The notes under the pieces are model-generated. The model saw nothing but the letters and a program-made list of their open reading frames with translations. It was not told the origin of the DNA and made no database searches. Below, one piece after another: positions 42 through 15,154 of a stretch of DNA of 17,836 bases (positions within the stretch are counted from its first letter, which is position 1; every line of letters begins with the position of its first letter). The stretch spans positions 1-17,836 of the forward strand of contig JAEOTV010000224.1 in NCBI GenBank assembly GCA_016839635.1. Direction: 5' to 3'. This stretch comes from Promethearchaeota archaeon. Lineage in GTDB: Archaea > Asgardarchaeota > Lokiarchaeia > Sigynarchaeales > SOKP01. The position numbers and the translations under genes were made by a program.

Positions 42-986
42 ATGGAGCAAAACAAAATGGAATTAACAATAGAGCAAATCAAATCTATTATGGAAAATGA
101 TTTTCAGATCCCTTCAGAATCTTCTCTAATGGAGATCACCCCTGTGTTGATTGAAAAATTAGGTAGTATCAATTCCGATATTCGGGAAGGGTGTTTGGAC
201 ATTTTATATGTGTGGATAATGAACGGAGAATATGATAATACAACTCTTATTTCGCTTGGGAATCAACTTATATCCCTGACACATTCAGGATTAAACCAAG
301 AAATATCCGATCTCGTGTTTTTACGGGCATTTGCGGCATTAGAAGTGGCTGGAATCTTGGTTTTTGATGAAAAATGTGAAAAAGGAGAAATCGAAGGAAG
401 AGATGCATTTTTAACACCAGAAATTGTAAAGAGATGGTTCACTACAGCATTGGAATATTATCAGCAAGAAAAAGATTATAGATCTTATGTAATTGGGAAA
501 GGTTGGGCACATTCAATTGCCCATGGTGCCGATTTATTCATGAATTTTTCGAAACATCATTTAATTCAAAAAGAGGAAATTCTTCAAATATTCCAACTTT
601 TTAAACATAAATTAGCTTCACCTTCCCCCATACTATTCAACGGGAAGGAAGAGTTAAGAATAGCCTCAGCTGTTTATACTGCATTATTGCGAAATAAACT
701 TGATATCCACGAAATTAATCAATGGTTATCTTCAATCTTTGATCATTTTAAAGGAAAACAATTTTGGGATTTTATAAATGAACCTGAGAAAGTGAATAGT
801 TTTTTCCATGTAGAGCGATTTTTCAAAGACTTTTATTTGATGATCAAATTTGGAATCTCCCGAAAAGGTTCACGAGCACACCCATATTATGATGTTCCTC
901 TCCAAAATCGAGATGAATTACTTAAATTATTAGAACAACGTATTTTAAAGGCAGATAATGATTCATTTTATTACACACCAGATTAA
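42..986 (+). CDS. DUF2785 family protein
   Basis: The product is a 314-residue soluble, mostly helical protein with no signal peptide or membrane segment. The central and C-terminal half matches what I know of DUF2785 (PF10978): a tyrosine-rich run (EYYQQEKDYRSYV), then the hallmark GKGWAHSIAHGAD at residues 152-164 with two histidines and an aspartate, then a segment with ELRIASAVYTAL. The function of DUF2785 is unknown, and it is better known to me from Firmicutes than from archaea, so transfer is possible. I chose ATG at 42 because GTGA at 33-36 sits 5 nt upstream like a ribosome site; the GTG at 33 is an in-frame alternative adding three residues. A stop lies just upstream in frame (27-29), so the gene is complete. 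A T-tract follows the stop. Family call fairly secure, function unknown. Confidence 0.8.
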   Translation: MEQNKMELTIEQIKSIMENDFQIPSESSLMEITPVLIEKLGSINSDIREGCLDILYVWIMNGEYDNTTLISLGNQLISLTHSGLNQEISDLVFLRAFAALEVAGILVFDEKCEKGEIEGRDAFLTPEIVKRWFTTALEYYQQEKDYRSYVIGKGWAHSIAHGADLFMNFSKHHLIQKEEILQIFQLFKHKLASPSPILFNGKEELRIASAVYTALLRNKLDIHEINQWLSSIFDHFKGKQFWDFINEPEKVNSFFHVERFFKDFYLMIKFGISRKGSRAHPYYDVPLQNRDELLKLLEQRILKADNDSFYYTPD

Positions 987-1002
987 TGAATACTTAATTT
1001 TG

Positions 1003-1011
1003 TTTTTTTTT
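1003..1011 (+). terminator. Oligo-T terminator after the DUF2785 gene
   Basis: A run of nine T residues lies 17 nt past the stop codon of the DUF2785 gene. Archaeal RNA polymerase commonly terminates at U-tracts without a hairpin. No stable stem is visible before it. The remainder of 1012-1131 is AT-rich and holds nothing I can name. Confidence 0.45.
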
Positions 1012-1131
1012 GTGATCATAAAGAATTCTATTATTGCCATATTTATCATCTTATATACATTGGATTATTGTAAGAATTAATATGATCCAATTTTTAAAAT
1101 AATAATCTTTTAGGTAAAAATTTTCAAAATT

Positions 1132-2403
1132 ATGGAATTTGGAAGAGAATATAGCGTAAAAGTTGATCCTCATTTCAGTATTCACATTGCGGGAGATACT
1201 GAAGAGGAATTAAAAGCAATCATTAATTTAAACATGGAAGTTCATCAAAAAGAGGTATTAGAGACATTTATTCGTCAAATCTTCTTAAAACATCCACGAA
1301 GAAGGGAGATTTTATGGTTGTATATCAAAGACGATAAAGAAAACAAACTAGTTTCTTCTATATGCTTATCTCCTTTAGAATGGCAAATTAAAGACATTAC
1401 ATTATCTGTATGTCAAATGGAATATGTTGGAACTCTTGAACAGTATAGGGGAAAAGGTCTTATTAAAATTTTAAACGAGCTGTACGAAAAATTAATGGAT
1501 CAAAATGGCTATATTCTTTCAGTTATTAAAGGTATACCCTATTATTACCGTTCTTTTGGATACGAATATGTTTCTTCTCTTGATGAGAGAATAGCAATTC
1601 CCGCATCCAAAATACCAAAAAAAAAAAATAAGGATACAAACATTAGAAAAGCTGATTCCAATGATATTCCCTTTATTGAATCAAAATATAATCAATTCCA
1701 TAGAAATTTTTATATCTTTAATAAATTTGACCCAGAATGCTTTATGTTTATGTATTTGAAAGATCAATTTAACTCAGAAGTCCGCTCCACTTATATTTTT
1801 GATGAAGAGGGGGTAGCTAATAATTATTTTTCCGTTGGAATGAGTTATGATAACCAAAATTATGAAATTATTACTCCAGATTTAAATAAAAACGAAGTGA
1901 TATCTTTACTTCAATTTATCAAAGCTATGGGAAACTATAATGATAATCATATTATCACTCTTAGTATCAGTGAACATTCTTCATTATTTAATTACATCAT
2001 ATCTTTAGGAGGAAAACCTCTTTCAGTTTATGGATGGCAAGTAAAAATTCCGAATTTGAAGAGATTTTTTAATTTAATAAAGAAAATAATTGAAAACAGA
2101 TTAAAACATTCTGAATTTAAAGGATTGACTAAATCTATAAGAATTAGTAATTATCATGAGACAGTCATATTAAATTTTAATAACGGAAAAATCGAGAAAA
2201 TTGAAGTTGAAAAAGAGTATCCGGATCCTAAGATTACAGATCTTATGATTCCAGGAGCTCTTTTATTTAAACTATTATTGGGAGATAGAACTTTTGATGA
2301 AATAAATTACATAATCAAGGATGCTATAGTAGACATTTCATCAAAATCAATAATTGAAACGATGTTTCCAAAAAAAATTAGTCTTTTTAGTTCATATCTC
2401 TAG
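1132..2403 (+). CDS. GNAT acetyltransferase, Eis-like, with SCP2-like C-terminus
   Basis: The product is a 423-residue protein of the GNAT fold in the Eis-like arrangement. Residues about 15-150 form the catalytic GNAT domain; QYRGKG near residue 104 is the acetyl-CoA pyrophosphate-binding motif A (Q/RxxGxG/A), followed by a helix and the typical GIPYYYRSFGYEYV segment, where Eis-type enzymes carry a tyrosine. Residues about 165-300 look like a second, degenerate GNAT unit, and about 305-415 resemble the sterol-carrier (SCP2-like) domain that closes Eis proteins, ending in a hydrophobic C-terminus (FSSYL). The family acetylates amines on small molecules or peptides; the substrate here cannot be read from sequence. 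There is no clear ribosome site; ATG 1132 is the first start that keeps the full domain. Length is close to the 400-odd residues of Eis. Confidence 0.8.
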   Translation: MEFGREYSVKVDPHFSIHIAGDTEEELKAIINLNMEVHQKEVLETFIRQIFLKHPRRREILWLYIKDDKENKLVSSICLSPLEWQIKDITLSVCQMEYVGTLEQYRGKGLIKILNELYEKLMDQNGYILSVIKGIPYYYRSFGYEYVSSLDERIAIPASKIPKKKNKDTNIRKADSNDIPFIESKYNQFHRNFYIFNKFDPECFMFMYLKDQFNSEVRSTYIFDEEGVANNYFSVGMSYDNQNYEIITPDLNKNEVISLLQFIKAMGNYNDNHIITLSISEHSSLFNYIISLGGKPLSVYGWQVKIPNLKRFFNLIKKIIENRLKHSEFKGLTKSIRISNYHETVILNFNNGKIEKIEVEKEYPDPKITDLMIPGALLFKLLLGDRTFDEINYIIKDAIVDISSKSIIETMFPKKISLFSSYL

Positions 2404-2460
2404 ATAAAAAAAGAAACTAATTCAGACCTGTTTAATTTACTTAAATTGATAATATAATCA

Positions 2461-2490
2461 AAATAAAAAAATGAAGTAAAAAAAAATTTT
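2461..2490 (-). terminator. U-tract terminator of the hdrA-vhuD-frhB-like cluster
   Basis: Downstream of the FrhB-like stop on the minus strand there are two T-tracts, nine Ts (2478-2486) and seven Ts (2465-2471). They lie between convergent genes, as expected for an archaeal U-rich terminator. No hairpin is visible. Confidence 0.45.
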
Positions 2491-2497
2491 AAATAAC

Positions 2498-3637
2498 CTA
2501 AGTCTTTTCTAATTCCATCTCTGCTATTGCTTTTCCCGATCGAAATGGAATATCATCAAGAGACATTCCTGCTTCATATTTGAACTTCTCTTTGAATGTA
2601 TCGTTTAAAGATTGAAAATATAACGAAAGTGGTAAATTTTGAGGGCAGTTATTATCACAATTTCCACATTCTACGCATCTATCAGCATCATGAGCTATTC
2701 TTGTTAATTGATATGTTGCTTTATCAATATTTTTATCTTTTCTCTTTTTCTGTAAGATACAATCCACACAGTAGCAAACTGGGCAACCCCGGATACAAGT
2801 ATTACACATTGTACATTTAAGAAGCTCTACTATTTTTTCTTCTTGTGAAAGTTTATCCCATTCTTCTAAATCTTTTGTTCGCTTTTCCTTTGCTTTTTCG
2901 ATTACTTCATTATATTTATCTGAGTGTGTCTTCTTCTCTTTATCTGGAAGCGTTTTTGTCTTAACTCCTGACTTATCTAAAATATCACTTCCTTTATCTG
3001 AATATACCTTCAGGATTATCTCATCTGAATCAACGGGAATCCCAAGATCACTAACAGTTAAATCAGCGATTACCGGAATTTTACGATAGCATCTCAAACA
3101 ATTTTCAGCTACAGTAAGATTAAGTTCTTTTGTGCTTCCATCTTCCATCTTAACTATAAGTCCTTTATCTCCTACTTTTTCTTTGATAATTTTAGTAGCA
3201 TCAACATCCTTAATTGCTCTCATTTCTCGTCCTGCTTTGGGAAGCATTCCTCTATCTTCAATACCAATTATAAAGAGATTATCAAGATTTACTTGCTTGA
3301 TTTTTGCAAGTTCTATTAAGGCTCTTGTATCACAAGGACGAGCAATTAATCCTACTTTTTCATTCATCGCACCAGCAACAGATTTATGCAGATATTTTGA
3401 AGCAGAATCCGTTCTTGCATATCCAAATGCAATTAAGGGAGTTAATGGAAAATCCTTCACATCGGCTTCTTTTTCTGCTAATTTTGGTTGAACGGTGAAT
3501 CTATCTATATTGCCGGATTTTTTATCGACCCTCAATTGAGCGCCAATTATTTTATCTACAGCTTTTTCTTTTAATAAAGTTGCCAAGATTTTAGAAAAAT
3601 CTTCAATCTTTATTAAATATTCTGCCATTGCTTCCAT
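2498..3637 (-). CDS. FrhB/FdhB-like F420-type oxidoreductase with dicluster ferredoxin domain
   Basis: The product is a 379-residue cytosolic iron-sulfur flavoprotein. Residues about 60-215 resemble the core of coenzyme F420 hydrogenase/formate dehydrogenase beta subunits, including GLIARPCDTRA (C102) and a Cys pair C180/C183. Residues 215-265 are a charged, coiled-coil-like linker. The C-terminus carries a cysteine-rich cluster (C275, C278, C281, C285, C288, C290, C293) and a second motif C321xxCxxCxxxC331, giving at least two [4Fe-4S] sites. FrhB/FdhB family members pass electrons between F420 (or a related donor) and iron-sulfur partners. Its place after hdrA and vhuD suggests it feeds an HdrA bifurcating complex. 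There is no UGA codon inside. It is 188 nt after vhuD, separated by the SECIS-like RNA. ATG 3637 or ATG 3628 could start it. Exact electron donor unknown. Confidence 0.75.
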   Translation of the reverse strand: MEAMAEYLIKIEDFSKILATLLKEKAVDKIIGAQLRVDKKSGNIDRFTVQPKLAEKEADVKDFPLTPLIAFGYARTDSASKYLHKSVAGAMNEKVGLIARPCDTRALIELAKIKQVNLDNLFIIGIEDRGMLPKAGREMRAIKDVDATKIIKEKVGDKGLIVKMEDGSTKELNLTVAENCLRCYRKIPVIADLTVSDLGIPVDSDEIILKVYSDKGSDILDKSGVKTKTLPDKEKKTHSDKYNEVIEKAKEKRTKDLEEWDKLSQEEKIVELLKCTMCNTCIRGCPVCYCVDCILQKKRKDKNIDKATYQLTRIAHDADRCVECGNCDNNCPQNLPLSLYFQSLNDTFKEKFKYEAGMSLDDIPFRSGKAIAEMELEKT

Positions 3638-3746
3638 GTAATTCCAACTCTAACTATATACTCAACAATTATTTTTTCTTAAATTTCACAAATATTTTGA
3701 AATAAATTTTTAATTCTTTTTTATTAAATTTTATCAAACCATTTTT

Positions 3747-3819
3747 ATGTGTTATATGGTGCGCCCATTTCTTCAACTGAGTTCTCATTTTTTTAACTCA
3801 GCTTCATCAGTAAACACAT
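3747..3819 (-). ncRNA. Candidate SECIS element in the vhuD 3' UTR
   Basis: Read on the minus strand, the element begins 6 nt after the vhuD stop. An outer stem pairs AUGUGUU (3819-3813) with AACACAU (3753-3747), 7 of 7. Inside is a hairpin CUGAGUU/AACUCAG (3801-3795 with 3783-3777), extended by A-U and G-U pairs to 9 bp, capped by an 11-nt loop with seven As. The base of that hairpin has AUGA on the 5' side (3807-3804) and GA on the 3' side (3774-3773), the bases that form the sheared G.A kink-turn in eukaryotic SECIS elements; the A-rich loop also fits. A second small hairpin AUGG/CCAU (3768-3756) completes a possible three-way junction. Known biology: archaeal SECIS elements usually lie in the 3' UTR. 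The SECIS identity is inference, strongly supported by four adjacent in-frame UGA codons. Confidence 0.7.
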
Positions 3820-3825
3820 TATTTT

Positions 3826-4284
3826 TTAAGCCTTAGCTTTCGCTTTAGCTTTTTCTTTTTTAGGTGTGCTTTTCGTACGGAGAGGACTTGGCCCTAATTT
3901 ATGGATAGTTTTATCGATTTCTATTGCTTCATTTTGAAATTTTTGACCTTCAGCTGCGGTACAATAGATTATTTTTATTCTATCTGGACTCAGTCCAACA
4001 ACTTTTAATATTTCTTTAATGTATTCAACTTGTCTATATGCATGATAATTGCCAGTTTCATAATCACATTCACCAGGGTATCAAGCATTAATTACTACAC
4101 CATCTGCGCCTCTTCCAAATGCTCGCATTACTAAGTCAGGTCCGACACGACCAGAGCAGGGTACTAGAACATTTCTGATACTATCAGGATATTGTGCCCG
4201 AATAGTACCCGCCATATCAGCTGAACCATATCCTCATTTCCAACAAGCATATACAATAATTTTAATATCATTATCTTGCGCCAT
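3826..4284 (-). CDS. vhuD: VhuD/MvhD-type hydrogenase delta subunit, selenoprotein with two Sec codons
   Basis: Reading UGA as selenocysteine gives a 152-residue protein matching the MvhD/VhuD family, the small [2Fe-2S] subunit that carries electrons from a hydrogenase or formate dehydrogenase to HdrA. Landmarks are ACWKUGYGSAD (family CNWCSYxGAD; U17 replaces Cys), VPCSGRVGP (C43), and NAUYPGECDY (family GCHPGDCHY; U68 replaces Cys, C73 kept). The C-terminal EGQKF and KLGPSP segments are also typical. The last 18 residues are a Lys/Ala-rich tail. Without recoding, no open frame longer than about 85 codons remains, so standard calling misses the gene. ATG 4284 follows the hdrA stop by 17 nt with an AGAGGT-like ribosome site; the stop is UAA. 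A SECIS-like RNA begins just beyond the stop. MvhD is an equally valid name. Confidence 0.88.
4081..4083 (-). other. UGA recoded as selenocysteine, VhuD residue 68
   Basis: The in-frame UGA falls exactly at the first cysteine of the conserved GCHPGDCHY-like motif (here A-U-Y-P-G-E-C). Family identity continues on both sides in the same frame, which argues against a true stop. Confidence 0.87.
4234..4236 (-). other. UGA recoded as selenocysteine, VhuD residue 17
   Basis: The in-frame UGA replaces the second cysteine of the N-terminal CxxC motif of MvhD/VhuD (here C14-W-K-U17-G-Y). Only 16 codons precede it, so termination would leave no protein, while the downstream frame is conserved. Confidence 0.87.
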
Positions 4285-4301
4285 TTTTTTTCTCTACCTC
4301 T

Positions 4302-6278
4302 CTATTCCTCCATTGGTAATAATACATCTACTAATGCCATATACTGATCATCTCTGAAATAAGTTAATTCAATTGCTTTTGATGGACATAATGATGCACA
4401 GGTTCCGCAACCTCGACAATTAATTAGGTCTACAACTATATTACCGTTTTCATTTATTGAAATAGCAGTATATGGACAAGCTTCTATACACTTATAACAT
4501 TTAGCACAACGTTCATCTGAGGGTGTAGCTCTGATTAATTCCATTGTATATTCTCCTTTTCCCATTGGAATACCTGCGACTGATGCTGCTCCTCTAGCTT
4601 GACTTACTGCTTTGTCAATTTCTTTTTGACCTTGAGCAGAACCGCAAATATAGATTCCAGGTACTTTTGTACTAATTGGGTCTAGTCGAGCATGGTATTC
4701 TTTTAAGAAACCATCAGTACTTCTCTCCATGTTTAATACCTTAGCAATTTGAAGAGTACCTTGAGATGGAAGTGAAGCAGAGGACAAAACAACCATATGG
4801 AATTCCATAGAGACAACACTATCGGTTCCAACTGGTTCAAATTGTACTGTAAGGTTTTTTGTTAGAGGATCTTCTTCAATTTTTCCAACTAGTCCTTTAA
4901 CAAAAACTATTCCCGCATTTCGAGATCGTCTGTAGTACTCTTCATATTCTTTTCCAGCACATCTCATGTCTATGTATACACAAAGTATTTGTGAATCGGG
5001 ATACTCTGATTTGATCAGTTTAGAGTTTTTAAGTGAAAGGTTACAGCAAATAACGCTACAATAAGCATTTTTGTTTACATCTCTAGATCCGACACAGTTA
5101 ATGAATAATACCTTGGTTGGACGTTTCCCATCTGATGGACGCTTCAAATGCCCATAAGTAGGACCATTTGGAGCGAGGATTCTCTCTAACTGTATTTGGT
5201 TGATTACATTATCGTATTTGCCATAACCATAATCATCTCCTTGATAGAGATCCCAACCAGTAGCAACTATTATTGTACCAACTTTAAGTTCTACAATTTC
5301 ATCCTGTTGACTGAAATCTATAGCTTGTTGTTCACAAGCATCTACACAAGCGAAACACTCGATGCATGCTTCTCTGTCAAGTTGAGATATTGCAGGGACT
5401 GCTTGGGCAAACGCAATATCAATAACCTTTCTTGCTGATAAATGCTCATCAAAATAGTTACTAATATAAACAGGACATACATCTGTACAGGTACCACAAC
5501 CAGTACATTCTTTTTCAAGGACAAATCGAGCCTTCCTTCTCACTTTAACTTCAAAATTGCCAATGTATCCATCAATTTTGGTTACTTCACTGTAAGATAA
5601 GATTTCTATATTTGGATGGCGATTAGCTTCAAGCATTTTTGGTCCCAAGATTCATATAGAACAATCATCTGTAGGGAAGGTTCTATCAAGTTGGGACATG
5701 CGTCCACCAATTGTCGTATTCGTTTCAACTAAATATACTTTGTATCCCGCATCAGCTAAATCAATAGCTGAAGATAATCCTGCAATTCCTCCACCTACTA
5801 CTAGAGCTACTGGTTCAACTGGTACAGTTTTAGTCGGAACATCTTCTAATAATTTCGCTCTGGCAATACCAGCCTTAATTAATTCAATAGCTTTTAGTGT
5901 AGCTTTTTCACGTACTTCTGGAGCTTGATGCACAAAGGAACAGTGTTCTCGAATGTTTACAAATTCCAAGTATCTTGGAGGTAATCCCATCTCTTTTAAA
6001 ATTGCATGGAAAACAGGTTGATGAGTTTTTGGAGTGCAAGCAGCAACTAAAACCCTATCAAATTTAAATTCTTCATGTTTCTCCTTGATTTCTGTAGATC
6101 CACCTTCAGTACATAAAGATAAATACGGATAAGCCCAAACATTATCTAATTTATCTATTACTTCGATTATCTTTGGAATATCTAAGATCCCTGCGATATT
6201 GATACCTCAGTGACACACGAACACACCTATTCTTGGTTGATCTTCGTTATTATTTTCATTGGTCTGTTTTTCAGACAC
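4302..6278 (-). CDS. hdrA: Heterodisulfide reductase subunit A, selenoprotein with two Sec codons
   Basis: With two UGA codons read as Sec the product is 658 residues, the normal HdrA size. In order: N-terminal Fe-S domain with VFVCHUG (U24) and AACTP; FAD Rossmann motif GGGIAG (162-167); FPTDDCSIUILGPKM with U209 where HdrA has Cys; inserted ferredoxin clusters C258xxCxxCxxxC268 and C305xxCxxCxxxC315; the second half of the thioredoxin-reductase-like fold ending with GIYICGSAQG; and two C-terminal ferredoxin clusters, C591-C601 and C621-C631. HdrA is the flavin-bifurcating subunit that splits electrons between ferredoxin and a thiol/disulfide branch. The gene leads the operon with vhuD 17 nt behind. 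GTG 6278 is chosen for its AGGTG-like site 6 nt upstream; in-frame GTG 6287 is an alternative. HdrB and HdrC are not in the window. No SECIS of its own was seen. Confidence 0.92.
5652..5654 (-). other. UGA recoded as selenocysteine, HdrA residue 209
   Basis: The codon lies in D-C-S-I-U-I-L-G-P-K-M, which aligns with the HdrA segment DCSACILTPKM, so UGA stands for the second cysteine next to the FAD. From memory, methanogen HdrA selenoproteins carry Sec at this site; I could not check this. Confidence 0.9.
6207..6209 (-). other. UGA recoded as selenocysteine, HdrA residue 24
   Basis: The codon lies in G-V-F-V-C-H-U-G-I, aligning with the HdrA N-terminal motif VCHCG, so UGA replaces the second cysteine. 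It is 185 codons upstream of the other hdrA UGA and in the same frame, with conserved HdrA sequence between them. Confidence 0.87.
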
Positions 6279-6313
6279 TTCTACCACCTTAAGTTAAACC
6301 TAACCTCCTAATT

Positions 6314-6321
6314 TTTATAAA
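6314..6321 (-). promoter_or_regulatory. TATA box for hdrA
   Basis: TTTATAAA on the minus strand is preceded by an A/G-rich stretch compatible with a BRE. Its centre is about 30 nt before GTG 6287 and 39 nt before GTG 6278, placing transcription start near 6290 with a very short leader. The sequence is palindromic and the region AT-rich, so chance is possible. Confidence 0.45.
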
Positions 6322-6584
6322 GTATCTTTTCTCTTAGTTTCTTGGTGTAAATTTAAGAAATGATGTTATGATCAAGTAAATAGTGTATATTATTAAAATT
6401 CAATTATTATGTAATTTGTGTAGGATTAGCAGTTAAATAATAACGTTAAAAACATTAATTTCTTCTAACAAGGAGATTTAAAATCATAAAGCGAATGACT
6501 AGTCTTTTTATATTTTTAAAGATAAATGATTATTAAGTCAAGATTATCAAAACTTTAAAGTTATAATTTTAAGTTAAATAAGCA

Positions 6585-6590
6585 GGGTGA
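6585..6590 (+). promoter_or_regulatory. Ribosome-binding site deciding the start at 6600
   Basis: GGGTGA lies 9 nt before the ATG at 6600 and matches the archaeal anti-Shine-Dalgarno core (complement of UCACC). It fixes the start of the large signalling gene. Confidence 0.65.
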
Positions 6591-6599
6591 AATAAAGAA

Positions 6600-9179
6600 A
6601 TGGAACCAGAACGAATCGCTTTTTATAGAGACCAAATTGAAAGATATCGAGAAAGACAACCAGTTTTCAAAGAATTAAAAGATAAAATTAAAGAAATATT
6701 AAAGTTTTCTATAAAAAAAGAACTTTTTAAAGAGAAATATTTAATACAAGGAAGGGTCAAAACAATTTCAAGTTTTGCTGAAAAAATTTCTCGACCAAAT
6801 AAAAATTATACTGATCCCATAAATCAACTCACAGATTTAAGCGGAATTCGTGTAATTTTACCTACAATTGAAAAGGAAGAAGCTGTATGTGAATTAATAA
6901 GAAGGATTTTCAAAATTGATACTAAAAACAGTTGGCATAAATTAGAAAAACTAAAACCTCATGAATTTGGTTATTTATCTCATCATTTTATAGTAGAACT
7001 TGACCCTACAAAAAAATTCCTTCAGGATTCAAACATTGAAATACCGGAGAATTTACTCAACATTAAAGCAGAAATACAAGTAAAAACCTATTTGGCATAT
7101 GCTTGGAATCTAAATCAGCATGGCTCTTTTTATAAGGGAGAATTTGAACCACCGATTGAATATCAGAGAGAATTTCATAGATCTGCAGCTTTACTTGAAG
7201 AAGCTGATCATTGTATCAATAATGTATTTAAAAAAATTCATGATTATGATTCCAGTTATGGAGCTTATATGTCTAGAGAGAGGATTGAAAAGGAGATTGA
7301 ACGCCTTCGAATCGTATTCAACGCTGTTCTAGATGATATAAATCTAGATGTTGGATATAAACTTGCTAAATTAGCTATGGAAATTGAAGATTGGAGACTA
7401 GCAATTGATACTTTAGCGGTTATCAAGGAGACTACAAAATGGGAAAATGAGGTAAAACATAAAAAAGCAGCAATTCTACGAGATCTCGGCTTTGCAATGA
7501 CACAATTTTATGATCCCTCAGAGGATCGAGAGCAGTTTGAAGAAGGTCAGGAATTAATTAAACAGGCTACATTAATAAATGAAAGAGATGTTGATGCAAT
7601 CGCTTCTCTCGGTGGATCATATAAAAGGCAAAATAATCATGAAGAAGCTTATAGAAAATACCAAGAAGCGTTAATAGATAATCCAGCTGAACCTTATCCT
7701 TTAATTAATTATTTGATCTATGAATTAAAAAAGAGTGAGAATATTAACAAAATTATTAAATATCAAAGAAGTGCTATATTAAAAGCAATTAAAAAGCGAT
7801 CCAAACAAATTGGAGTCTTAGTAGACATTCCATGGGCGTTTTTTGATGTTGGTTTTTTTTCCTTACTGTTGGGCAATTTAGATGAAGGGTCTCATAATAC
7901 AAATATATACAAGAGTTTAAACAATTATTTAATGGGGATTAGATTTAGTCCTAATCTGTGGATGATACATACTACAATCAAAACTTTAAAATTGATGCAA
8001 GAGAAATTTAGAGATTTGAAAGATATTGATTTAGTTTTAATACTTTTATATTTAGGAATTTTATTTCATTCGGAGAGTAATTTGGATGAAAATAACGAAA
8101 TTGTGGATGAAGCAAGTCAATTTTTGAGAAATAATTCGATCCTAAGACAAAATAGATTACCTAGAGATAAAAATGTTATTATAATAGCAGGTGGGACTGA
8201 TAGATCTTTTAATCAAGATTTAATGAAATATAGTTTAAACTTTTTCAACGCATTTCAAGGATATGAAGGAGTAATAATTTCAGGTGGAACTAATGTAGGA
8301 GTTTGTGCTTTAGCTGGTAAAATTAGACATAGGTATCCCAATGATATCCAATTATATGGTTACATTCCCAGTGTTTTACCTACTGATGGTACTGTACAAA
8401 GAGATGAAAATTTTAGACATTTTATAACAAGCGGAAGTGATTTTAGTATTTTAGAATGCTTTCAGTACTGGTACGACATCCTGAATGCGAACATTGATCC
8501 TTCTAAAGTAAAACTAATTGGGCTTAATGGAGGAGAAATTGCAAATCTAGAGTATCTTATCTCAATTGTTTTCGGAGCTCAAGTGGGATTAATTGAAAAT
8601 AGTGGACGAGCAGCTTCAGAACTAATTAAAAATCGATGGTGGACAGTAAGAGAAGCTTCAACCTTAAGTAAAAGTACCAAACGTTTATTTAAAGTCGTAA
8701 AAAATAGCACTGAAGAAATTAAAAACTTTATCTTTAAACCTGTAATTTTTGATACCGATGTTGATAATATAAAGAAAATTTTAATTTTGACCCACGAAAG
8801 TGGTACAAACATGTTTGAATTAGACTTTGCAGGTGATCCAATAGATAATGAGATTTTGACTGCATTACTTAACGCTTTAGATAGAATAGGTCAAACTGAA
8901 CTACATGTTGGAGAAATTTTATCAGTCAAATTTAGAAACGCATTCTTAACTGGTGGTTTTTTATGCAGGAATCGATTCAAGATAATCTTTCTTCTTAAAG
9001 AGACACCGTCTAAAATTTTAGAAGAAAATATTAGTAGATTTATTGAAGAATTAGAACAAAAAAAGTGTGAAGAATTTCATGAATTAGCAGATCAGTTCCA
9101 TATATTTCCGCTAGATGATGAAATGAGAGAAATACTTGGGAGATCATTTGGAGAAGAAATCTCTAAACTTCTAAATTAG
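6600..9179 (+). CDS. RelA/SpoT synthetase - TPR - SLOG (LSDAT) - longin-like fusion protein
   Basis: The product is an 859-residue soluble multidomain protein. Residues about 25-215 form a RelA/SpoT nucleotidyltransferase: G51-R-V-K (ATP-binding arginine motif), D79-L-S-G-I-R (metal aspartate), G-Y125-L-S-H-H, and E158-I-Q-V-K-T, the equivalents of Rel residues R241, D264, YxSxH and E323, so synthesis of (p)ppGpp-like nucleotides is plausible; no HD hydrolase domain is present. Residues about 250-400 are helical, TPR-like. Residues about 523-690 are a SLOG domain of the LSDAT (TRPM-like) type: IIIAGGT (527-533), SGGTNVGV (561-568) and SGRAA (668-672), expected to bind a nucleotide or nucleotide-derived ligand. 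Residues about 724-855 resemble Asgard longin/roadblock-like domains. An NLR-like gene follows after 201 nt on the same strand. Synthetase and SLOG calls are firm, the longin call tentative. Confidence 0.82.
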   Translation: MEPERIAFYRDQIERYRERQPVFKELKDKIKEILKFSIKKELFKEKYLIQGRVKTISSFAEKISRPNKNYTDPINQLTDLSGIRVILPTIEKEEAVCELIRRIFKIDTKNSWHKLEKLKPHEFGYLSHHFIVELDPTKKFLQDSNIEIPENLLNIKAEIQVKTYLAYAWNLNQHGSFYKGEFEPPIEYQREFHRSAALLEEADHCINNVFKKIHDYDSSYGAYMSRERIEKEIERLRIVFNAVLDDINLDVGYKLAKLAMEIEDWRLAIDTLAVIKETTKWENEVKHKKAAILRDLGFAMTQFYDPSEDREQFEEGQELIKQATLINERDVDAIASLGGSYKRQNNHEEAYRKYQEALIDNPAEPYPLINYLIYELKKSENINKIIKYQRSAILKAIKKRSKQIGVLVDIPWAFFDVGFFSLLLGNLDEGSHNTNIYKSLNNYLMGIRFSPNLWMIHTTIKTLKLMQEKFRDLKDIDLVLILLYLGILFHSESNLDENNEIVDEASQFLRNNSILRQNRLPRDKNVIIIAGGTDRSFNQDLMKYSLNFFNAFQGYEGVIISGGTNVGVCALAGKIRHRYPNDIQLYGYIPSVLPTDGTVQRDENFRHFITSGSDFSILECFQYWYDILNANIDPSKVKLIGLNGGEIANLEYLISIVFGAQVGLIENSGRAASELIKNRWWTVREASTLSKSTKRLFKVVKNSTEEIKNFIFKPVIFDTDVDNIKKILILTHESGTNMFELDFAGDPIDNEILTALLNALDRIGQTELHVGEILSVKFRNAFLTGGFLCRNRFKIIFLLKETPSKILEENISRFIEELEQKKCEEFHELADQFHIFPLDDEMREILGRSFGEEISKLLN

Positions 9180-9380
9180 ATACTATAAATTTTTCTTTTA
9201 ATAGAGAATTAATTTTAGTATACAATATTAATTTAGAGTGAGTGCTAAATCATTTTGTTTTAGACATTTTTATTAATAGCTGAGTAATAGTGTTATTTAG
9301 AATATGTAAAAATTTTTTTAATTAAAAATTAATCTTCCTAATTATATTTACCATAAGAAAAGAACATAGGTATAGAATAT

Positions 9381-12300
9381 ATGGAGTATCAGAGTATTAA
9401 ATGTACAAACTGTAATTACTTAATTCAGGGGGAATCATTAGCAAAACTTCAACAGAGTGGTCATATTGTTTGCGATAATTGTGGTACTAGCTTGATTCTA
9501 AGAGAAAACAAAATATTTTTATCAGGTACCTCTGAGTTTAGATACTTAATAGAAGGATTGAATGATTTATTATACTCCATAGGTTATGAACCAATATGGT
9601 TTAAAGAGAAATTCTATTTAGAAACCAATGATGCTATAGGTGAATGTTTTACTAACATAGAGAAATCAGATAAGTTTATCATTGTTATAGGTAAAAATTA
9701 CGGATATATGAGAAATGGTAAAAAAATTTCGGTTATTGAAGAGGAATTCGATTATGCATTTTCACTTAATAAGCCTATGATGGTATTTATAGATTCAGAA
9801 GTTTTCAATGAGACAAAATTTTATCAGCAAGTAAAGGATAAGGATTTAGACTTTAATGATTTTGAAGCTTTTACTGCTGATGAGAATATATATCAATTCA
9901 TTTTGAAGATTGAAGCTATTCGGCCAAAGTTATGGATGGAGTCATTCACATCAAGGAAAGATATTGTCAGCAAGATTACGAATCATTGGCCTTTACGTAT
10001 TGGAAAAGATGGAATTATAAAAAAACCTCTTAAATCGAATTATGAGAGTATAATGGTTCCCGTGGAAACCGAACCAAAATACTTTAGATTATTGGAACAT
10101 AGTCGTGTTTCTGGTGATATATACGAAGTTGATATCAAAAAAGGCGCTGTAGAACGCATAGAAAGTGTTATTTGGGATCTTAAAGAAGAATTATTAAAAA
10201 ATGGAAATTGGGTGTTGCTTAGTGGTAAATCTGGGCTTTCCAAGACAACAACCGCAAAAATATTAGCTTATGATGTATTTAAGTCTGGAATTGATGTATA
10301 CTTCAAAAACCGTCCAGAAGAAATCAAGGATTTTATTAAAAGTCTAGATGATACCACAGGTATAAAACTAATCATAATTGATGATTTACATAGGAGATCT
10401 TTTGGGGAAATTTCATCAAAAATAGGAAATCTTTATCCATTAATCAAATTTAAGAATTTAAATGTTATAGTGCTAGCAATTTCGCGTTTAACCTTAAAAC
10501 AGATTAGTGATATTTGTAAGAATGTTGAAGAAAGACGTGTTATTGACAGATTTACTCAAATTAATATGGAAGATTATATGGAAAGCATTAAAAGTGCTCA
10601 AGAAAACTTGATAACAAATATTTTAACGCAAGAAAATAAATTTAAGGAGGATTTAGGAGATTTCACAAATAAACTTATCGAGAATTATGGTAATGATTTT
10701 GTTTCTTTAGGATTCGCTTTATTACAATTAGTTAAATCGGGAACTCCAAAAGTAGATGAGCATATTATTATTGAAGAAAGGCAGGAGTTCTTGAAAAACG
10801 AACTTGAAGAAATACTAAGAGGAGATGCTCTCAACCTTCAAGTTTTAATAAGTGTCTATATAGGTGCATGTTATTGTGGTTTGGTTGATGAGGCCGTTTC
10901 CGTAGATCATTTTGATCAAAAAATACATCCAAAGAAGCTTATTTGGACAGCTTTAAACGCGCTATCTAATCAAGGTTTGTTATCTAAAGCTGTTGTATTT
11001 GAAAAAAATAAAAACCTTTATCAATTCGAAGCATATCATGCAAAAATTGCTGAAATGGATATAAAAGCTTTAAAAGCAGGTTTTTGGGTGAATAATGATA
11101 CATATGAATGGGATGATGTTTGTACTCTAATCCGGTTCAAAGTTGATGGTCTTCATGAACTTGATATAAACGATGTATTTTCTAATATTAAAACCCTTAA
11201 ATATTTAATTTTATTAAATGTTGGAGTCCAATCGCTTCCTGATTCCATCAAAAATCTCAAATCTCTTGAAAAGTTAGATTTAAGATATAATAAAATATTT
11301 GTTCTACCTGATACAATAGGTGAATTAAAAACTTTAGAAATATTAAATTTAAAAAACAATCAGTTAAGAGTCTTACCTGAATCAATTAATGAACTCAAAT
11401 TACTAAAGAAATTGGATATTAGTAATAACCCTCTGCAAAAATTACCAGAAACCATCTTTGGTTTAGCAAATATAGAAGAATTAAGGCTTGAACATATAAA
11501 CTTGGTTAATTTATCTGAAAAAATTAACCAGCTTAAAAACCTAATAATTCTTGATCTGAGAAGTAATTCCTTAAAAGAATTGCCGAGCACCATTGGAGCC
11601 TTACAGTTTCTTGAAGAATTATATTTAGATGGTAATAAGTTAAAAGCATTACCAGGATCCATTGAAGAATTAAAGGAATTAAAAGTGCTCTCCTTGAATA
11701 GCAATGAACTGGTAAACATTCCAGAACACATTGGTCATTTGCATCACTTAAAAACTCTAAATTTAAGCAATAACGTGCTAGAAGAGTTGCCTGATTCAAT
11801 GGGAAAACTCAAATCGCTAAAAATGTTAAATCTCGATGCTAATAATTTGAAAATATTACCAAATTCTTTGGGTAATCTCGTCCAATTAAATGAATTGAAC
11901 TTAGGATTTAACAAACTTAATGCATTTTACGATAGTATTGGAAGTTTATACTCCTTGAGAAGGTTACTTGCTCAAAATAATAATATTAACCAGATTCCAG
12001 AATCTATCGGAAATCTAAAAATACTTCAGGAATTAGCTTTACACTTTAATCGATTAACATCAGTTCCTAATTCTTTAGGATCTCTTACTTCTCTTAAAAA
12101 GCTTGATATTGGCGGAAATAATATTAAGGAAATTCCAAATACAATAGGAAATCTGAAAAACTTAGAAGAACTATATTTAGGTTATGTTCAAATTAAAACA
12201 TTTCCACACTCCTTTGGTAATTTAAAAAAACTAAAAATTTTTCAAATTGTAGGTAGCCCTCTCAATAAACTTCCTGATTGTTTATTTGAGCTTGAATCAC

Positions 12301-12959
12301 TCAAATTATTAAGAATGTCTATGTGTAATATAGAATTTCTTCCTGATTCAATAAGGAAATTGAAGAATCTTGAGAAACTAGTATTAAACGGCAATAAATT
12401 GGAAAAGCTTCCAGATTCATTTGGAGAACTTAAATTTTTAAAAGAAATTACGTTAGATAATAATTTATTAAACATATTGCCTGAGAGTATTGGAAAGCTT
12501 AAGTTGCTTCGTAAATTAATTCTAAAAAATAATCAAATAACATCTATTCTTTCTGAAATTCGAGATTTATCATCCCTCCAATTGTTAGATTTAAGTAATA
12601 ATAAATTAGAAAAACTTCCAGAAACTATATTCGAACTTAATTTACTAAAAGAATTTGATATCAGCAATAATGAGATAAAATATATACCATCTTCAATTGA
12701 AAATCTTAAAAATATTAACGAAATTGATATTAGTGGAAATCAAATATTTGAATTACCAGAATCAATCGGAAATCTCACAAGTTTAATAAAATTAAACCTG
12801 TCAAAGAACCAATTTACAACTTTACCTTATTCAATTGGGAACTTACAAAATCTTAAATTTATTAACTTGAGAGATAATAATTTTGGTATAGATAAGGATT
12901 CTAAAATAACTGAGCTTTTAAACAATTTAAAAGAAAAGGGATGCATCGTAATACGATAG
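9381..12959 (+). CDS. NLR-like protein: zinc ribbon - DUF4062 - STAND NTPase - leucine-rich repeats
   Basis: The product is 1192 residues. A zinc ribbon (C8xxC11, C31xxC34) precedes a DUF4062 domain (about 46-165), recognised by IFLSGTSEFR, the S-D-K-F-I-I-V-I-G segment and YG; DUF4062 is thought to be a TIR- or SLOG-like Rossmannoid effector/adaptor. Residues about 255-450 are a P-loop STAND-type NTPase: Walker A GKSGLSKTT (282-290), Walker B LIIIDDLHR (D334, D335), sensor strand VIVLAISR. Residues 455-585 are helical, winged-helix-like. From about 590 to the end there are about 24 repeats of 23 residues with the LPxSI signature, forming a solenoid sensor. This is the effector-NTPase-LRR plan of NLR immune receptors. 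There is no signal peptide, so it is cytosolic. The ATG 9381 start has only a weak AGGT upstream. Ligand and output are unknown. Confidence 0.85.
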   Translation: MEYQSIKCTNCNYLIQGESLAKLQQSGHIVCDNCGTSLILRENKIFLSGTSEFRYLIEGLNDLLYSIGYEPIWFKEKFYLETNDAIGECFTNIEKSDKFIIVIGKNYGYMRNGKKISVIEEEFDYAFSLNKPMMVFIDSEVFNETKFYQQVKDKDLDFNDFEAFTADENIYQFILKIEAIRPKLWMESFTSRKDIVSKITNHWPLRIGKDGIIKKPLKSNYESIMVPVETEPKYFRLLEHSRVSGDIYEVDIKKGAVERIESVIWDLKEELLKNGNWVLLSGKSGLSKTTTAKILAYDVFKSGIDVYFKNRPEEIKDFIKSLDDTTGIKLIIIDDLHRRSFGEISSKIGNLYPLIKFKNLNVIVLAISRLTLKQISDICKNVEERRVIDRFTQINMEDYMESIKSAQENLITNILTQENKFKEDLGDFTNKLIENYGNDFVSLGFALLQLVKSGTPKVDEHIIIEERQEFLKNELEEILRGDALNLQVLISVYIGACYCGLVDEAVSVDHFDQKIHPKKLIWTALNALSNQGLLSKAVVFEKNKNLYQFEAYHAKIAEMDIKALKAGFWVNNDTYEWDDVCTLIRFKVDGLHELDINDVFSNIKTLKYLILLNVGVQSLPDSIKNLKSLEKLDLRYNKIFVLPDTIGELKTLEILNLKNNQLRVLPESINELKLLKKLDISNNPLQKLPETIFGLANIEELRLEHINLVNLSEKINQLKNLIILDLRSNSLKELPSTIGALQFLEELYLDGNKLKALPGSIEELKELKVLSLNSNELVNIPEHIGHLHHLKTLNLSNNVLEELPDSMGKLKSLKMLNLDANNLKILPNSLGNLVQLNELNLGFNKLNAFYDSIGSLYSLRRLLAQNNNINQIPESIGNLKILQELALHFNRLTSVPNSLGSLTSLKKLDIGGNNIKEIPNTIGNLKNLEELYLGYVQIKTFPHSFGNLKKLKIFQIVGSPLNKLPDCLFELESLKLLRMSMCNIEFLPDSIRKLKNLEKLVLNGNKLEKLPDSFGELKFLKEITLDNNLLNILPESIGKLKLLRKLILKNNQITSILSEIRDLSSLQLLDLSNNKLEKLPETIFELNLLKEFDISNNEIKYIPSSIENLKNINEIDISGNQIFELPESIGNLTSLIKLNLSKNQFTTLPYSIGNLQNLKFINLRDNNFGIDKDSKITELLNNLKEKGCIVIR
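11150..12930 (+). repeat. Coding array of about 24 leucine-rich repeats (69-bp period)
   Basis: This is the repeat part of the NLR-like gene. Each unit encodes 23 residues with conserved L-x-x-L-P-x-S-I and N-x-L positions. Units are diverged at DNA level, with no identical neighbours seen, so the array looks old and stable rather than recently amplified. Units 5, 11 and 20 lack the proline of the LP step (LSEKI, FYDSI, ILSEI). The array runs to the last residues of the protein. Confidence 0.85.
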
Positions 12960-13023
12960 TCATTAAGTTTATTGGTTAATTATTAAATGTTTAGCTCATT
13001 ATTGAAAAGAATTAAGAAATCTA

Positions 13024-13428
13024 TTAATAGAATTCTGTTTCAACTAATTGAACAACTTTAAGGAGCCGCTTGATCATCGAATATGACTGTATTATGTTTG
13101 CAACGTCTCCCATAACTCTGAATTTACCCGCCATCGTACTCCTTATAAGATCGATCTTACCCTCCATCAAATTTTTCCAATTTTCGTAAGAACCTTCAAA
13201 TGTGTAATCTGTTTGAACATCATCTGGAGAGGTTATTGCGCCTCCATCTACGACGTATCCATTTGAGATATCTAACCACACATATAAGTCCATTTCAATA
13301 TGATGGTCTGCTTTTATAATTAGTAAAAAATCTCCTTCCCAATCCTTGGCTTTATTCCTGAATCTCTCATTATTATTTATATTCTCGATAACTTCTTTAA
13401 CCCATTCTTCTGTGGCAAAAAAGACCAT
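13024..13428 (-). CDS. SCP2 sterol-carrier-like lipid-binding protein
   Basis: The product is 134 residues, about the size of a lone SCP2 domain (COG3255-like). After an N-terminal helix, a beta-rich part (FLLIIKADHHIEMDLYVWLDISNG) leads to the typical C-terminal stretch FEGSYENWKNLMEGK followed by MAGKFRVMGDVANII, which matches the W-x-x-L/I-x-x-G-x-x-x-x-x-x-A-x-x-x-G-K-x-x-x-x-G-D pattern of the family. These proteins bind lipids or fatty acyl-CoA in a hydrophobic tunnel; the ligand here is unknown. A GAGAGGA ribosome site precedes ATG 13428. It lies on the same strand as, and 153 nt downstream of, the TetR regulator and may be co-transcribed with it. The 13429-13581 gap shows nothing else. 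Confidence 0.75.
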   Translation of the reverse strand: MVFFATEEWVKEVIENINNNERFRNKAKDWEGDFLLIIKADHHIEMDLYVWLDISNGYVVDGGAITSPDDVQTDYTFEGSYENWKNLMEGKIDLIRSTMAGKFRVMGDVANIIQSYSMIKRLLKVVQLVETEFY

Positions 13429-13581
13429 ATTCTTATTCCTCTCTTCTAATTTTTCTCCAATTAACTATTATATATTTATTGTTATATTATAAAATGTTTT
13501 CTTTATATCAACAAAAATGAAAATTCTAGATTTCTCTATTTATATTCTTGATCCTCTTCTAACTCTAATGGAATATTAAAT

Positions 13582-14160
13582 CTAACTGAATCTAATAAAT
13601 TTTAATATCATATCTGCTAAATAATTAATCAAATCTTTATCAGTAATTAAATTATCTTCAGAAATCACATGTCGATGAATAATACTGTCAATTGAATAAA
13701 GAAGAAATTTACTAATCATATTTAAATTCTCTTTATCAGGATATCCTAATTGTTTTAGAACATTTGAAATCAGAGGAACAAGCTTTAATTCATTTTGGAT
13801 ATATTCATAATCTTGAAATAACTTTCTATTTGAAAGAAACGCGGATTCAAGTGCGATAATAAGTAATTTATTTTGTTTATGTTGTTCTAAATATTGGCTT
13901 AAAAATGATTTTAAAAAGTCTGGGAGATTATCAATTGTTAAGCTCTTAAGATTTATTTCTTCTAAGAATTCAGCATACCCTTGTTTAATAATTTCTTTGA
14001 TAATATCTGGTTTTCCATTCTCAAAGTGATAATAAAGTGTGCCGATACTTATGCTTGCCTCTTTCGCAATGTGATTTGTACTAATATTATTATACCCTTT
14101 TTCTTGGATCATTTGAATTGTTGTATCTATTATTTCTTTTTTAACATTTCTAACGCTCAA
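13582..14160 (-). CDS. TetR/AcrR family transcriptional regulator
   Basis: The product is 192 residues. Residues about 4-52 form a TetR helix-turn-helix: IIDTTIQMIQEKGYNNIST, then NHIAKEASISIGTLYYHFENG, the near-invariant recognition helix with Y-Y-H-F. The rest is an all-helical ligand-binding and dimerisation domain with no recognisable ligand motif. The start is TTG 14160, supported by a strong AGGGGAG site 9 nt upstream and by correct placement of the HTH domain. It is divergent from the membrane protein at 14327, and two identical palindromes in the shared promoter region are probable operators, implying autoregulation and control of the neighbour. The ligand is unknown. Confidence 0.9.
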   Translation of the reverse strand: MSVRNVKKEIIDTTIQMIQEKGYNNISTNHIAKEASISIGTLYYHFENGKPDIIKEIIKQGYAEFLEEINLKSLTIDNLPDFLKSFLSQYLEQHKQNKLLIIALESAFLSNRKLFQDYEYIQNELKLVPLISNVLKQLGYPDKENLNMISKFLLYSIDSIIHRHVISEDNLITDKDLINYLADMILKFIRFS

Positions 14161-14226
14161 ATTTTAATTCTCCCCTAAATTCTCTTATTGCTATATAATT
14201 ATGGGTTGTCGAAATATTTAAACTTA

Positions 14227-14241
14227 TCGAGCAAAGCTCGA
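14227..14241. promoter_or_regulatory. Palindromic operator 1, probable TetR site
   Basis: TCGAGCAAAGCTCGA is a perfect inverted repeat (TCGAGC/GCTCGA) about a 3-nt centre. It lies where transcription toward the TetR gene should begin, and is identical to the copy at 14274-14288. TetR dimers bind such 15-bp palindromes. Assignment to this TetR is inferred from position. Confidence 0.75.
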
Positions 14242-14245
14242 AAAA

Positions 14246-14253
14246 TTTATAAA
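14246..14253. promoter_or_regulatory. TATA element(s) of the divergent promoter region
   Basis: TTTATAAA, a self-complementary TATA box, lies between the two palindromes within an AT-rich run (14242-14271). For the plus-strand gene it places transcription start near 14276-14280, inside palindrome 2. For the TetR gene it or an overlapping box near 14257 would place the start at or just past palindrome 1. Confidence 0.55.
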
Positions 14254-14273
14254 TATAAATTAACATATATTCT

Positions 14274-14288
14274 TCGAGCAAAGCTCGA
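14274..14288. promoter_or_regulatory. Palindromic operator 2, probable TetR site
   Basis: This is an exact second copy of TCGAGCAAAGCTCGA, 47 bp centre-to-centre from the first. It overlaps the expected transcription start of the membrane-protein gene at 14327, a position suited to repression. Confidence 0.75.
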
Positions 14289-14326
14289 TAAAAAATATTA
14301 AAATTTTTAAGGTGAAAGTAAAAAAA

Positions 14327-15037
14327 ATGTCATTAAATGTAATGGAAGAAATAAAATCCATTAAAGATAATTTAGATAATGGGGTAAACTATAAAGAAGA
14401 AAAGAAAAATTTCTTTCAAGTCGTAGATTTTGTTAAAATCCATGAAATTAAAGATGAAGAGATCTTAGAAAAAATAAGTGAGCTAAGATATAACATGGCA
14501 AGAACATGGAGACCAAACCAATTTTCAATTCAGTCGGGGCTGCTACTATGGACAACGTTAATAGGATTTGGAGCTTTTTTGATCTATAGTACATTTTGGA
14601 TTTTGGCACAATTAACAGGTCTTGGAATATGGATGAATATATTATATGCGATCACTCTCATTCTTGGCTGGCTTTCAATTAATGTGGGAATTCATAATTT
14701 GGGGCATTACATTGCAGGAAAATTAGTAGGAATAAATTTTCATGCCTGGGTTATACGTAAAGCGGTATTTCAATGGGCATTAATTATTGAGTATAAATCC
14801 TATCTAATGGTTACCTTTAGGAAAAGACAAATACTTCATATCGCGGGACCAGTATCAACTCTTGGGGCACCTTGGATAATTTACTTAATAACTTTAAATC
14901 CAATTATGATTGGAATAGGGATTTATATGTTTGTTGCATCAATCCCTGTAATAGTAAAAAAAAAATGGGATTACGGAAGAATTTTTAAAGAAAGACAATT
15001 GAAAAAGCAAAATAAAAAAGCCCAAAATCAAATCTAA
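14327..15037 (+). CDS. Membrane protein resembling an M50/site-2 protease, catalytic Glu absent
   Basis: The product is 236 residues from ATG 14327, chosen because AAGGTGA (14309-14315) fits as ribosome site; GTG 14312 lies inside that site. A charged cytosolic N-terminus of about 65 residues leads to four or five membrane segments (about 70-95, 101-125, 170-190, 192-210) and a basic C-terminal tail. The second segment ends in H123-N-L-G-H127-YIAGKLVG, the place and context of the M50 zinc motif HExxH-(A)-x-(K)-x-x-G, but with Asn for the catalytic Glu. AGPVST near 173 and D215-Y-G-R resemble the later GP and D-G motifs. If related, it would be an inactive or altered intramembrane protease that may bind rather than cut. 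It is divergent from, and probably controlled by, the TetR gene. The M50 link is inference. Confidence 0.6.
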   Translation: MSLNVMEEIKSIKDNLDNGVNYKEEKKNFFQVVDFVKIHEIKDEEILEKISELRYNMARTWRPNQFSIQSGLLLWTTLIGFGAFLIYSTFWILAQLTGLGIWMNILYAITLILGWLSINVGIHNLGHYIAGKLVGINFHAWVIRKAVFQWALIIEYKSYLMVTFRKRQILHIAGPVSTLGAPWIIYLITLNPIMIGIGIYMFVASIPVIVKKKWDYGRIFKERQLKKQNKKAQNQI

Positions 15038-15040
15038 TAT

Positions 15041-15050
15041 CTTTTTTTTA
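15041..15050 (+). terminator. U-tract terminator after the membrane protein gene
   Basis: Eight Ts follow 4 nt after the stop codon in an AT-rich region, a typical archaeal U-tract terminator. No hairpin is visible. Confidence 0.45.
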
Positions 15051-15154
15051 TTTATAATTTTAATATCATTTCTTTATCTCCATCATTTTCAATAAAATTG
15101 TATGTATAATTTTTCATTTATATGGATGTGATTAAAATACAATTAAACAGATTA

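Follow-up and report, generated by a model that had tools for sequence, protein, structure and literature searches.

A predicted alarmone synthetase carrying TPR-S-like, LSDAT/SLOG and longin domains in Asgard archaea, with TIR genes beside many of its relatives

We analysed a 17,836-nucleotide stretch of DNA from a Promethearchaeota archaeon (assembly GCA_016839635.1, contig JAEOTV010000224.1, positions 1 to 17,836; hereafter the window), in which a single open frame on the + strand, running from an ATG at 6600 to a stop at 9179, encodes a protein of 859 residues. As judged from its sequence, this one chain comprises a RelA/SpoT synthetase, TPR-S-like repeats, an LSDAT/SLOG domain and a C-terminal longin domain. 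Genes for TIR proteins directly adjoin relatives of this gene in other Asgard genomes, and the reading that we prefer, to which we give roughly an even chance of being right, is that of an Asgard alarmone synthetase gated by its SLOG domain and coupled to TIR proteins, which would resemble the Thoeris system with a different output. The features on which the argument rests are as follows.

6600..9179, + strand: gene for the four-module protein, 859 residues (open reading frame call, Pfam)
6750..7139, + strand: RelA/SpoT synthetase domain, residues 51-180 (Pfam PF04607, E 1.4e-12; YjbM, YwaC and 2be3; PADLOC PDC-S33)
6969..6986, + strand: G-loop motif GYLSHH, residues 124-129, with Tyr125, Ser127 and His129 (alignment to solved synthetases)
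7419..7718, + strand: TPR-S-like sensor repeats, residues 274-373 (PF20308, 20.4 bits, below the cut-off of 27.6)
8175..8699, + strand: LSDAT/SLOG domain, residues 526-700 (PF18171, 22.8 bits, below the cut-off of 25.4)
8772..9110, + strand: C-terminal longin domain, residues 725-837 (paralog-only profile, E 4.2e-12; family matches)
9381..12959, + strand: DUF4062-nSTAND3-LRR (leucine-rich repeat) gene, candidate partner, 201 bases downstream of the synthetase gene (Pfam)

Domain architecture of the 859-residue protein

A search of 5.8 billion proteins, with scoring confined to the 7994 candidates that had most words in common with the query, gave 52 proteins with E<=1e-3 (the query and 51 others), which we treat as the family. 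An earlier interpretation of the letters alone (the sequence-only reading) had placed the four modules in one polypeptide and suggested a search for homologs of the full architecture; the single frame, and 32 homologs of 837-867 residues with the same C-terminal domain (P0002-P0033, 37-82% identical, the closest at 82%), bear this out. These homologs, together with the grouping of the longin fusions in one clade (support 98; see below), argue against mis-assembly of the metagenome contig or a chimeric gene within it, an explanation that we regard as scarcely credible.

Within the synthetase domain the Pfam match lies well above its curated cut-off (48.3 bits against 27), and the PADLOC phage-defence candidate model PDC-S33 matches residues 29-169 with E 2.7e-12. 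The closest solved synthetase chains are GTP pyrophosphokinases (2be3, 3l9d, YjbM and YwaC). On alignment to solved RelP/RelQ-type synthetases, R52, D79 and E158, the catalytic residues that had been proposed to be intact, fall at the expected places in the RVK, D-x-x-G-x-R and E-x-Q-x-R/K-T motifs. Comparison with YjbM-type chains at 15 positions shows that R52, K54, K62, D79, R84, Y125, S127, H129, E158, Q160, T163, W169, H174 and K179 all fit, the sole deviation being position 162, which is Lys here and Arg in YjbM-type enzymes.

The two sensor-like regions are matched by Pfam below the curated cut-offs in the window protein and above them in relatives. For TPR-S, the E-value is 7.8e-4 in the window protein, the scores in the relatives L006 and L084 are 34.4 and 35.8 bits, and 30 of the 52 family members have a match at E<=0.01. 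For LSDAT_prok the E-value is 6.2e-5, the score in the relative L010 is 27.1 bits, and 46 of the 52 have a match at the same threshold. The window protein has the SLOG loops SGGTNVGV and SGRAA, and the glycine loops GGT...SGGTxxG and GG...E are invariant at G531, G532, T533, G562, G563, T564, G567, G644, G645 and E651 in all 33 rows aligned, the window included. A profile search of the PDB returned a TRPM2-like channel as the second of two matches, which is not significant (E 0.37) and in which the same loop is aligned.

The C-terminal domain was identified through its family. A Pfam scan of the 859-residue protein gives no match beyond residue 715, the C-terminus of the window protein searched by itself matches no Pfam family, and a first set of 21 C-terminal domains, seven of them synthetase-fused, matched no Pfam longin family. 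A profile built from Asgard paralogs alone, from which synthetase-fused members were excluded, does match residues 725-837 with E 4.2e-12. When 29 members were scanned at E<=0.1, five matched Fuz_longin_1, four Sybindin, two Longin and one Intu_longin_1 (best E 5e-7); Fuz_longin_1, the Pfam longin of FUZ, MON1 and HPS1, exceeds its cut-off of 26.1 in L107 and L110 (27.7 bits), where the longin domain precedes an Arf/Ras-like GTPase in the same protein. Profile searches of the PDB gave chance matches only with a smaller set of C-termini and, with a wider set, placed AP-4 sigma, MON1 and TRAPPC1 in the top six at non-significant E-values of 0.07-0.16, mixed with unrelated chains.

Comparison of profiles with hhalign also relates the paralogs to Asgard roadblock proteins, at 64% for paralogs alone and 66% for 28 paralogs plus the window, against no more than 1.4% for controls run with the paralog profile (reversed roadblock, synthetase, TPR and SLOG); the mixed set of 21 C-termini scored 27%. 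Direct identity with roadblock was rejected, the synthetase-fused C-termini alone scoring 2.8% against Asgard roadblocks with their own controls at 0.1-0.6%. We therefore assign the domain, on family resemblance, as a longin that is related to roadblock and is not itself a roadblock. The proposal of a longin/roadblock-like C-terminus tied to GTPases thus stands as a longin by family, GTPase-fused in two paralogs. Asgard longin domains and longin-GTPase fusions are already known, and the text consulted does not mention a synthetase fusion (PMC10933270).

A family-profile search of six genomes finds the C-terminal domain by itself in many other proteins, and 56 of 59 Asgard genomes have matches to it at E<=1e-5, between 1 and 44 apiece. 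In the 43 loci read, it often lies C-terminal to a membrane span in proteins with large outer parts. This mostly Pfam-unmatched longin-like family is widely expanded in Asgard genomes (for example at L023, L026, L028, L031, L096, L107 and L110) and looks like a receptor-to-GTPase signalling module.

Distribution of the family and fate of its active site

At E<=1e-60 the family is present in 15 of 227 Asgard genomes, where up to four candidates were scored for each genome. In two bacterial phyla it was found in one of 400 and one of 395 genomes; no more than two candidates per genome were scored there, so that more may exist. The distribution looks sporadic. A RyR domain is found in ten of the 52 members; in the bacterial relatives L007, L008, L009 and L012 (four of six loci) it stands in place of the longin with the G-loop intact, and L010 and L011 are without it. 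In the Acidobacteria relative L011 (8873-11932), a sigma-54 activator domain is fused ahead of the RelA/SpoT and TPR modules. Viruses and plasmids were rejected as carriers of the full architecture: in a search that covered viral contigs and plasmids, with the phage record collection outside it, the matches, in eight viral loci and four plasmid records, are confined to query residues 13-261 at the synthetase end.

Residues 1-715 of 70 rows were used for a rapid maximum-likelihood tree, which contains at least a dozen long branches, omits the fragments P0034, P0035, P0037 and P0044, and has support from the Shimodaira-Hasegawa-like approximate likelihood-ratio test (SH-aLRT) only. It places the longin-bearing members in one group of 40 rows with support 98, among them L005, a protein cut off ahead of the longin. 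The window protein (P0001) falls with P0002, P0004 and P0013 in a four-protein subclade, also with support 98. Two arrangements suggest that sensor and maker can be split across two chains: in genome G119 a longin-bearing copy without a synthetase adjoins a synthetase copy without a longin, and P0003, which has the longin and has lost His129, and P0036, which has no longin and an intact site, both come from contigs of 19,465 bases that are probably the same contig. A second family copy in G161 (L083, 9362-11881) is spread over two open reading frames, with one TAA within the match.

The fate of the active site differs between branches. In the residue tallies, which count the four fragments omitted from the tree, the 35 longin-bearing rows include two partial ones. 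Asp79 and Lys54 are each kept in 33 of these rows with two gaps, Glu158 in 31 and Arg52 in 30, and Tyr125 is Tyr in eight. His129 is His in four, which are P0001, P0002, P0004 and P0013. The catalytic residues are not lost across all homologs, since Tyr125 and His129 are both intact in all ten RyR rows, and they are also intact in five of the seven rows with neither RyR nor longin. Because the site residues are kept, the G-loop included, the synthetase of the window's clade should be active; in CapRel, phage protection is reported to require the G-loop Tyr155 (PMC9712102). The other longin-bearing members appear to have either changed the acceptor or lost activity, and the ATP-side residues Lys54, Asp79 and Arg52 are mostly kept, so that a change of acceptor and loss are equally likely. 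The description of the protein as a nucleotide maker in the sequence-only reading accordingly fits the predicted intact site of the window protein and does not carry over to the longin-bearing family as a whole.

These losses bear on a different explanation, in which the protein acts chiefly as a scaffold that senses nucleotides for a small-GTPase or membrane system and its synthetase is a relic being lost, as in most longin-bearing relatives. His129 is missing from 31 of the 35 longin-bearing rows, one of them by a gap; outside the window's clade none of the 31 members retains it and four retain Tyr125, with the alignment gapped around the G-loop in derived longin members, so that loss of the motif is surer than any single letter. 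Within the derived longin clade the synthetase is also less conserved than any other module (29 rows; pairwise identity averages 0.56, against 0.68 for SLOG), longin paralogs are fused to an Arf-like GTPase, and a gene for a Ras-family GTPase lies directly upstream of the family gene in L002 (8793-9353). However, in the four rows of the window's clade the synthetase is conserved like SLOG (0.55 and 0.53) with every site residue kept, the retained ATP side in the other members fits a changed acceptor equally well, and a GTPase gene next door was noted in one locus only. We consider the scaffold unlikely.

The family gene supplies the sole RelA_SpoT match at E<=1e-4 in 14 of the 15 family-bearing Asgard genomes; the fifteenth, G099, holds a family fragment without the RelA_SpoT domain. 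The HD_4 hydrolase family is found in two of the 15 and is missing from 12 of the 14, counts that, like those for RelA_SpoT, may be affected by incompleteness of the draft genomes. With HD_4 in so few of these genomes, the alarmone signal would mostly not be reset by the usual enzyme. A 2011 survey, in the part consulted, reports few RSH proteins in archaea (PMC3153485).

TIR genes and other neighbours

The 15 family-bearing Asgard genomes contain 67 TIR_2 matches, of which G161 accounts for 26; two genomes have none. A TIR gene is the immediate neighbour of the family gene in nine of the 14 testable genomes (G002, G003, G004, G005, G117, G130, G141, G144 and G146), G001 being untestable as its contig ends 101 bases upstream of the gene; a contig end interrupts the family gene of G005 and that of G146, where one flank only is seen. 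If 0.9 genes per kb are assumed and each TIR match is counted as a gene, 0.03 adjacent genomes are expected against the nine observed (P about 1e-22). After near relatives are collapsed, three of eight lineages are positive (P 4e-7). In G119 and G161 TIR genes lie within three open reading frames of the family gene, and in L079 a TPR-TIR gene ends 49 bases upstream of it. The TIR partner in L004 and L005 is a beta-helix protein with a C-terminal TIR, and that in L003 is another long protein ending in TIR. All 20 TIR segments of these loci, read by eye from an alignment, keep a Glu at the position presumed to be catalytic.

Bacterial relatives were read at six loci. A Nudix gene lies directly upstream of the family gene in L007, L008 and L009, and in two of the six loci a TIR gene is found within three open reading frames (a TIR-HEAT gene overlapping the family gene in L009 and, in L010, TIR genes flanking the family gene, of which one is its immediate neighbour). 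L007 also encodes RyR and TrkA-RyR proteins, and L010 a RyR protein. In L012 DUF4062 proteins are encoded two and four open reading frames from the family gene, the nearer of them being DUF4062-NACHT-TPR. The family gene of L011 has no Nudix, TIR, RyR or DUF4062 neighbours that we could find. PADLOC model PDC-S33 matches the synthetase in all three proteins tried (P0001, P0041 and P0036), PDC-S07 matches the Nudix protein of L007, and ThsB models match one of three TIR neighbours tried. The neighbourhoods fit the proposal, made in the sequence-only reading, that the SLOG/LSDAT domain is a predicted nucleotide sensor of conflict systems, and the TIR genes beside the relatives suggest a possible immune switch.

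In the window itself, the next gene (9381-12959) encodes DUF4062 (44-126), an nSTAND3 NTPase (270-402) and leucine-rich repeats, a protein that is NLR (NOD-like receptor)-like in domain order. L080 likewise has a DUF4062-AAA-TPR gene next to the family gene; LRR, two family copies, DUF4062-AAA-TPR, TIR and TIR-LRR genes are clustered there (2564-19900) in what looks like an Asgard defence island.

Several observations weigh against a TIR-coupled immune role. No TIR gene was found in the window, and its DUF4062 domain is no more than a candidate TIR relative (TIR_2 E 0.0062, below the cut-off; 2.8% in a profile comparison built on four sequences only). The nine TIR-adjacent genomes amount to about three lineages, and no TIR gene lies near the family gene in G006, G153 or G099, nor in the stretch read of the bacterial loci L008, L011 and L012. 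Where a TIR gene does adjoin, it can be convergent to the family gene (L002) or about 500 bases from it (L003 and L004). PADLOC models match none of the TIR protein of L003, the DUF4062 protein of the window or that of L080. The synthetase copy of the G119 pair itself lacks His129 and Trp169, which adds to the loss of the acceptor site across most longin-bearing members. Finally, a similar run of genes lies downstream of the family gene in L001, L003 and L004 (aminotransferase in L003 and L004, BKACE-like, diaminohexanoate dehydrogenase-like and aminomutase-like), which suggests lysine fermentation and thus a metabolic context.

This last context would suit a housekeeping regulator of the stringent response, in which the TPR, SLOG and longin modules would monitor metabolism or the state of the membrane, and (p)ppGpp from the synthetase would control growth. 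The canonical active site of the window protein, the single RelA_SpoT match per genome and the position of the gene upstream of the putative lysine-fermentation run are all consistent with such a role, but the HD_4 hydrolase occurs in just two of the 15 genomes, the family is sporadically spread in Asgard and bacterial genomes among the candidates scored, and its neighbours include TIR, Nudix and DUF4062 genes. We regard a housekeeping role as distinctly improbable.

Elsewhere in the window, an HdrA-like gene (4302-5990, - strand) is present as two open reading frames and is open throughout if an in-frame TGA (5654-5652) is read as selenocysteine (DCSI-U-ILGPKM), which fits a selenoprotein HdrA; such selenoproteins occur in some archaea. 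No Rfam family reaches its gathering score anywhere in the window.

A possible mechanism and its relation to known systems

On the reading of a TIR-coupled, SLOG-gated synthetase, a partner protein would sense an insult; this would be a TIR protein in many relatives and perhaps the DUF4062-STAND-LRR protein in the window, a choice that is a guess because no TIR gene was found there. The partner would convert NAD+ to an ADP-ribose-type signal, which the SLOG domain and TPR-S repeats may bind, freeing the synthetase to use ATP as pyrophosphate donor, with a nucleotide or the 3' ends of tRNA as acceptor, and so cause growth arrest. The longin, which takes the place that RyR has in bacterial relatives, might serve in dimerisation or connect the protein with membrane or small-GTPase complexes, a role inferred from its kin. 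The remaining longin-bearing members have a decayed acceptor site and would use a different acceptor or carry out no synthesis. The signal, its reading by SLOG and the release of the synthetase are thus conjectural steps set upon an anatomy, a set of conserved residues and neighbourhood statistics of relatives that are seen directly.

The closest parallel is Thoeris, in which the SLOG domain of ThsA is reported to be activated by cyclic ADP-ribose (cADPR) isomers, such as 3'cADPR, made by the TIR protein ThsB (PMC11204291, PMC10022894). As there, a TIR gene stands in the relatives beside a gene for an effector-coupled SLOG-type protein, and the TIRs keep the presumed catalytic Glu. The effector here is, however, a RelA/SpoT synthetase and not one of the reported ThsA kinds, SIR2-SLOG and TM-macro (PMC11204291); TPR-S and a longin or RyR are added; in L003-L005 the TIR lies at the C-terminus of a long partner protein of beta-helix or membrane type; and the window is without a TIR gene. 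CapRel and toxSAS proteins share a RelA/SpoT synthetase with a G-loop Tyr, a probable defence function and, presumably, regulation by the protein's own C-terminal part. In CapRel that regulator is described as a pseudo-zinc-finger antitoxin (PMC9712102), whereas here it would be the TPR-S-SLOG-longin region after residue 230.

The bacterial RelA/SpoT-TPR-LSDAT-RyR proteins (L007, L008, L009 and L012) are homologous over about residues 1-700 and have the same active site, but end in RyR in place of the longin and have a Nudix neighbour in three loci; P0039-P0052 are 27-35% identical to the window protein. RelP and RelQ (YwaC, YjbM) align over the catalytic core and are short proteins without these sensor modules. 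TRPM channels carry LSDAT in their MHR1/2 region, and TRPM2 also has a Nudix domain. The likeness to them lies in the LSDAT loop aligned in the TRPM2-like channel, at the non-significant E-value given above, and in the Nudix genes next door in bacterial loci; no channel is present here, and the kinship rests on the Pfam family. The longin shares its kin with Asgard longin-GTPase fusions and with the eukaryotic longins of MON1, HPS1, FUZ and TRAPP, and here it is joined to an alarmone synthetase.

The sequence-only reading had called the architecture undescribed. Part of this does not stand, as Pfam already holds TPR-S and prokaryotic LSDAT, PADLOC already holds PDC-S33, and bacterial RelA/SpoT-TPR-RyR proteins, some with LSDAT, already exist. 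RelA/SpoT-LSDAT proteins have probably been catalogued by others: Burroughs and co-workers in 2015, and Burroughs and Aravind in 2020, reportedly gave LSDAT and TPR-S of conflict systems their names, and may list RelA/SpoT fusions. What looks new is the Asgard longin fusion together with the TIR linkage, and in the titles and opening lines of abstracts searched we found no account of a longin-fused or TIR-linked alarmone synthetase in Asgard archaea.

Tentatively, and with more doubt than confidence, we suggest that these proteins may represent a third TIR-SLOG immune class, in which a TIR-made, NAD-derived signal would activate an alarmone or tRNA pyrophosphokinase that is the only alarmone synthetase of its Asgard genome, mostly occurs in genomes that lack the usual hydrolase, and would be tied by its longin to small-GTPase and membrane machinery of the kind that eukaryotes inherited. 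The family offers testable material in its intact members, in a natural series that has lost the acceptor site, and in the TIR genes directly adjoining relatives. It is also relevant to the way in which TRPM-type sensors, RyR, Nudix and longins were assembled before eukaryotes and, if the reading is true, it would link TIR/SLOG immunity, alarmone signalling and the longin/GTPase biology of the archaea nearest eukaryotes.

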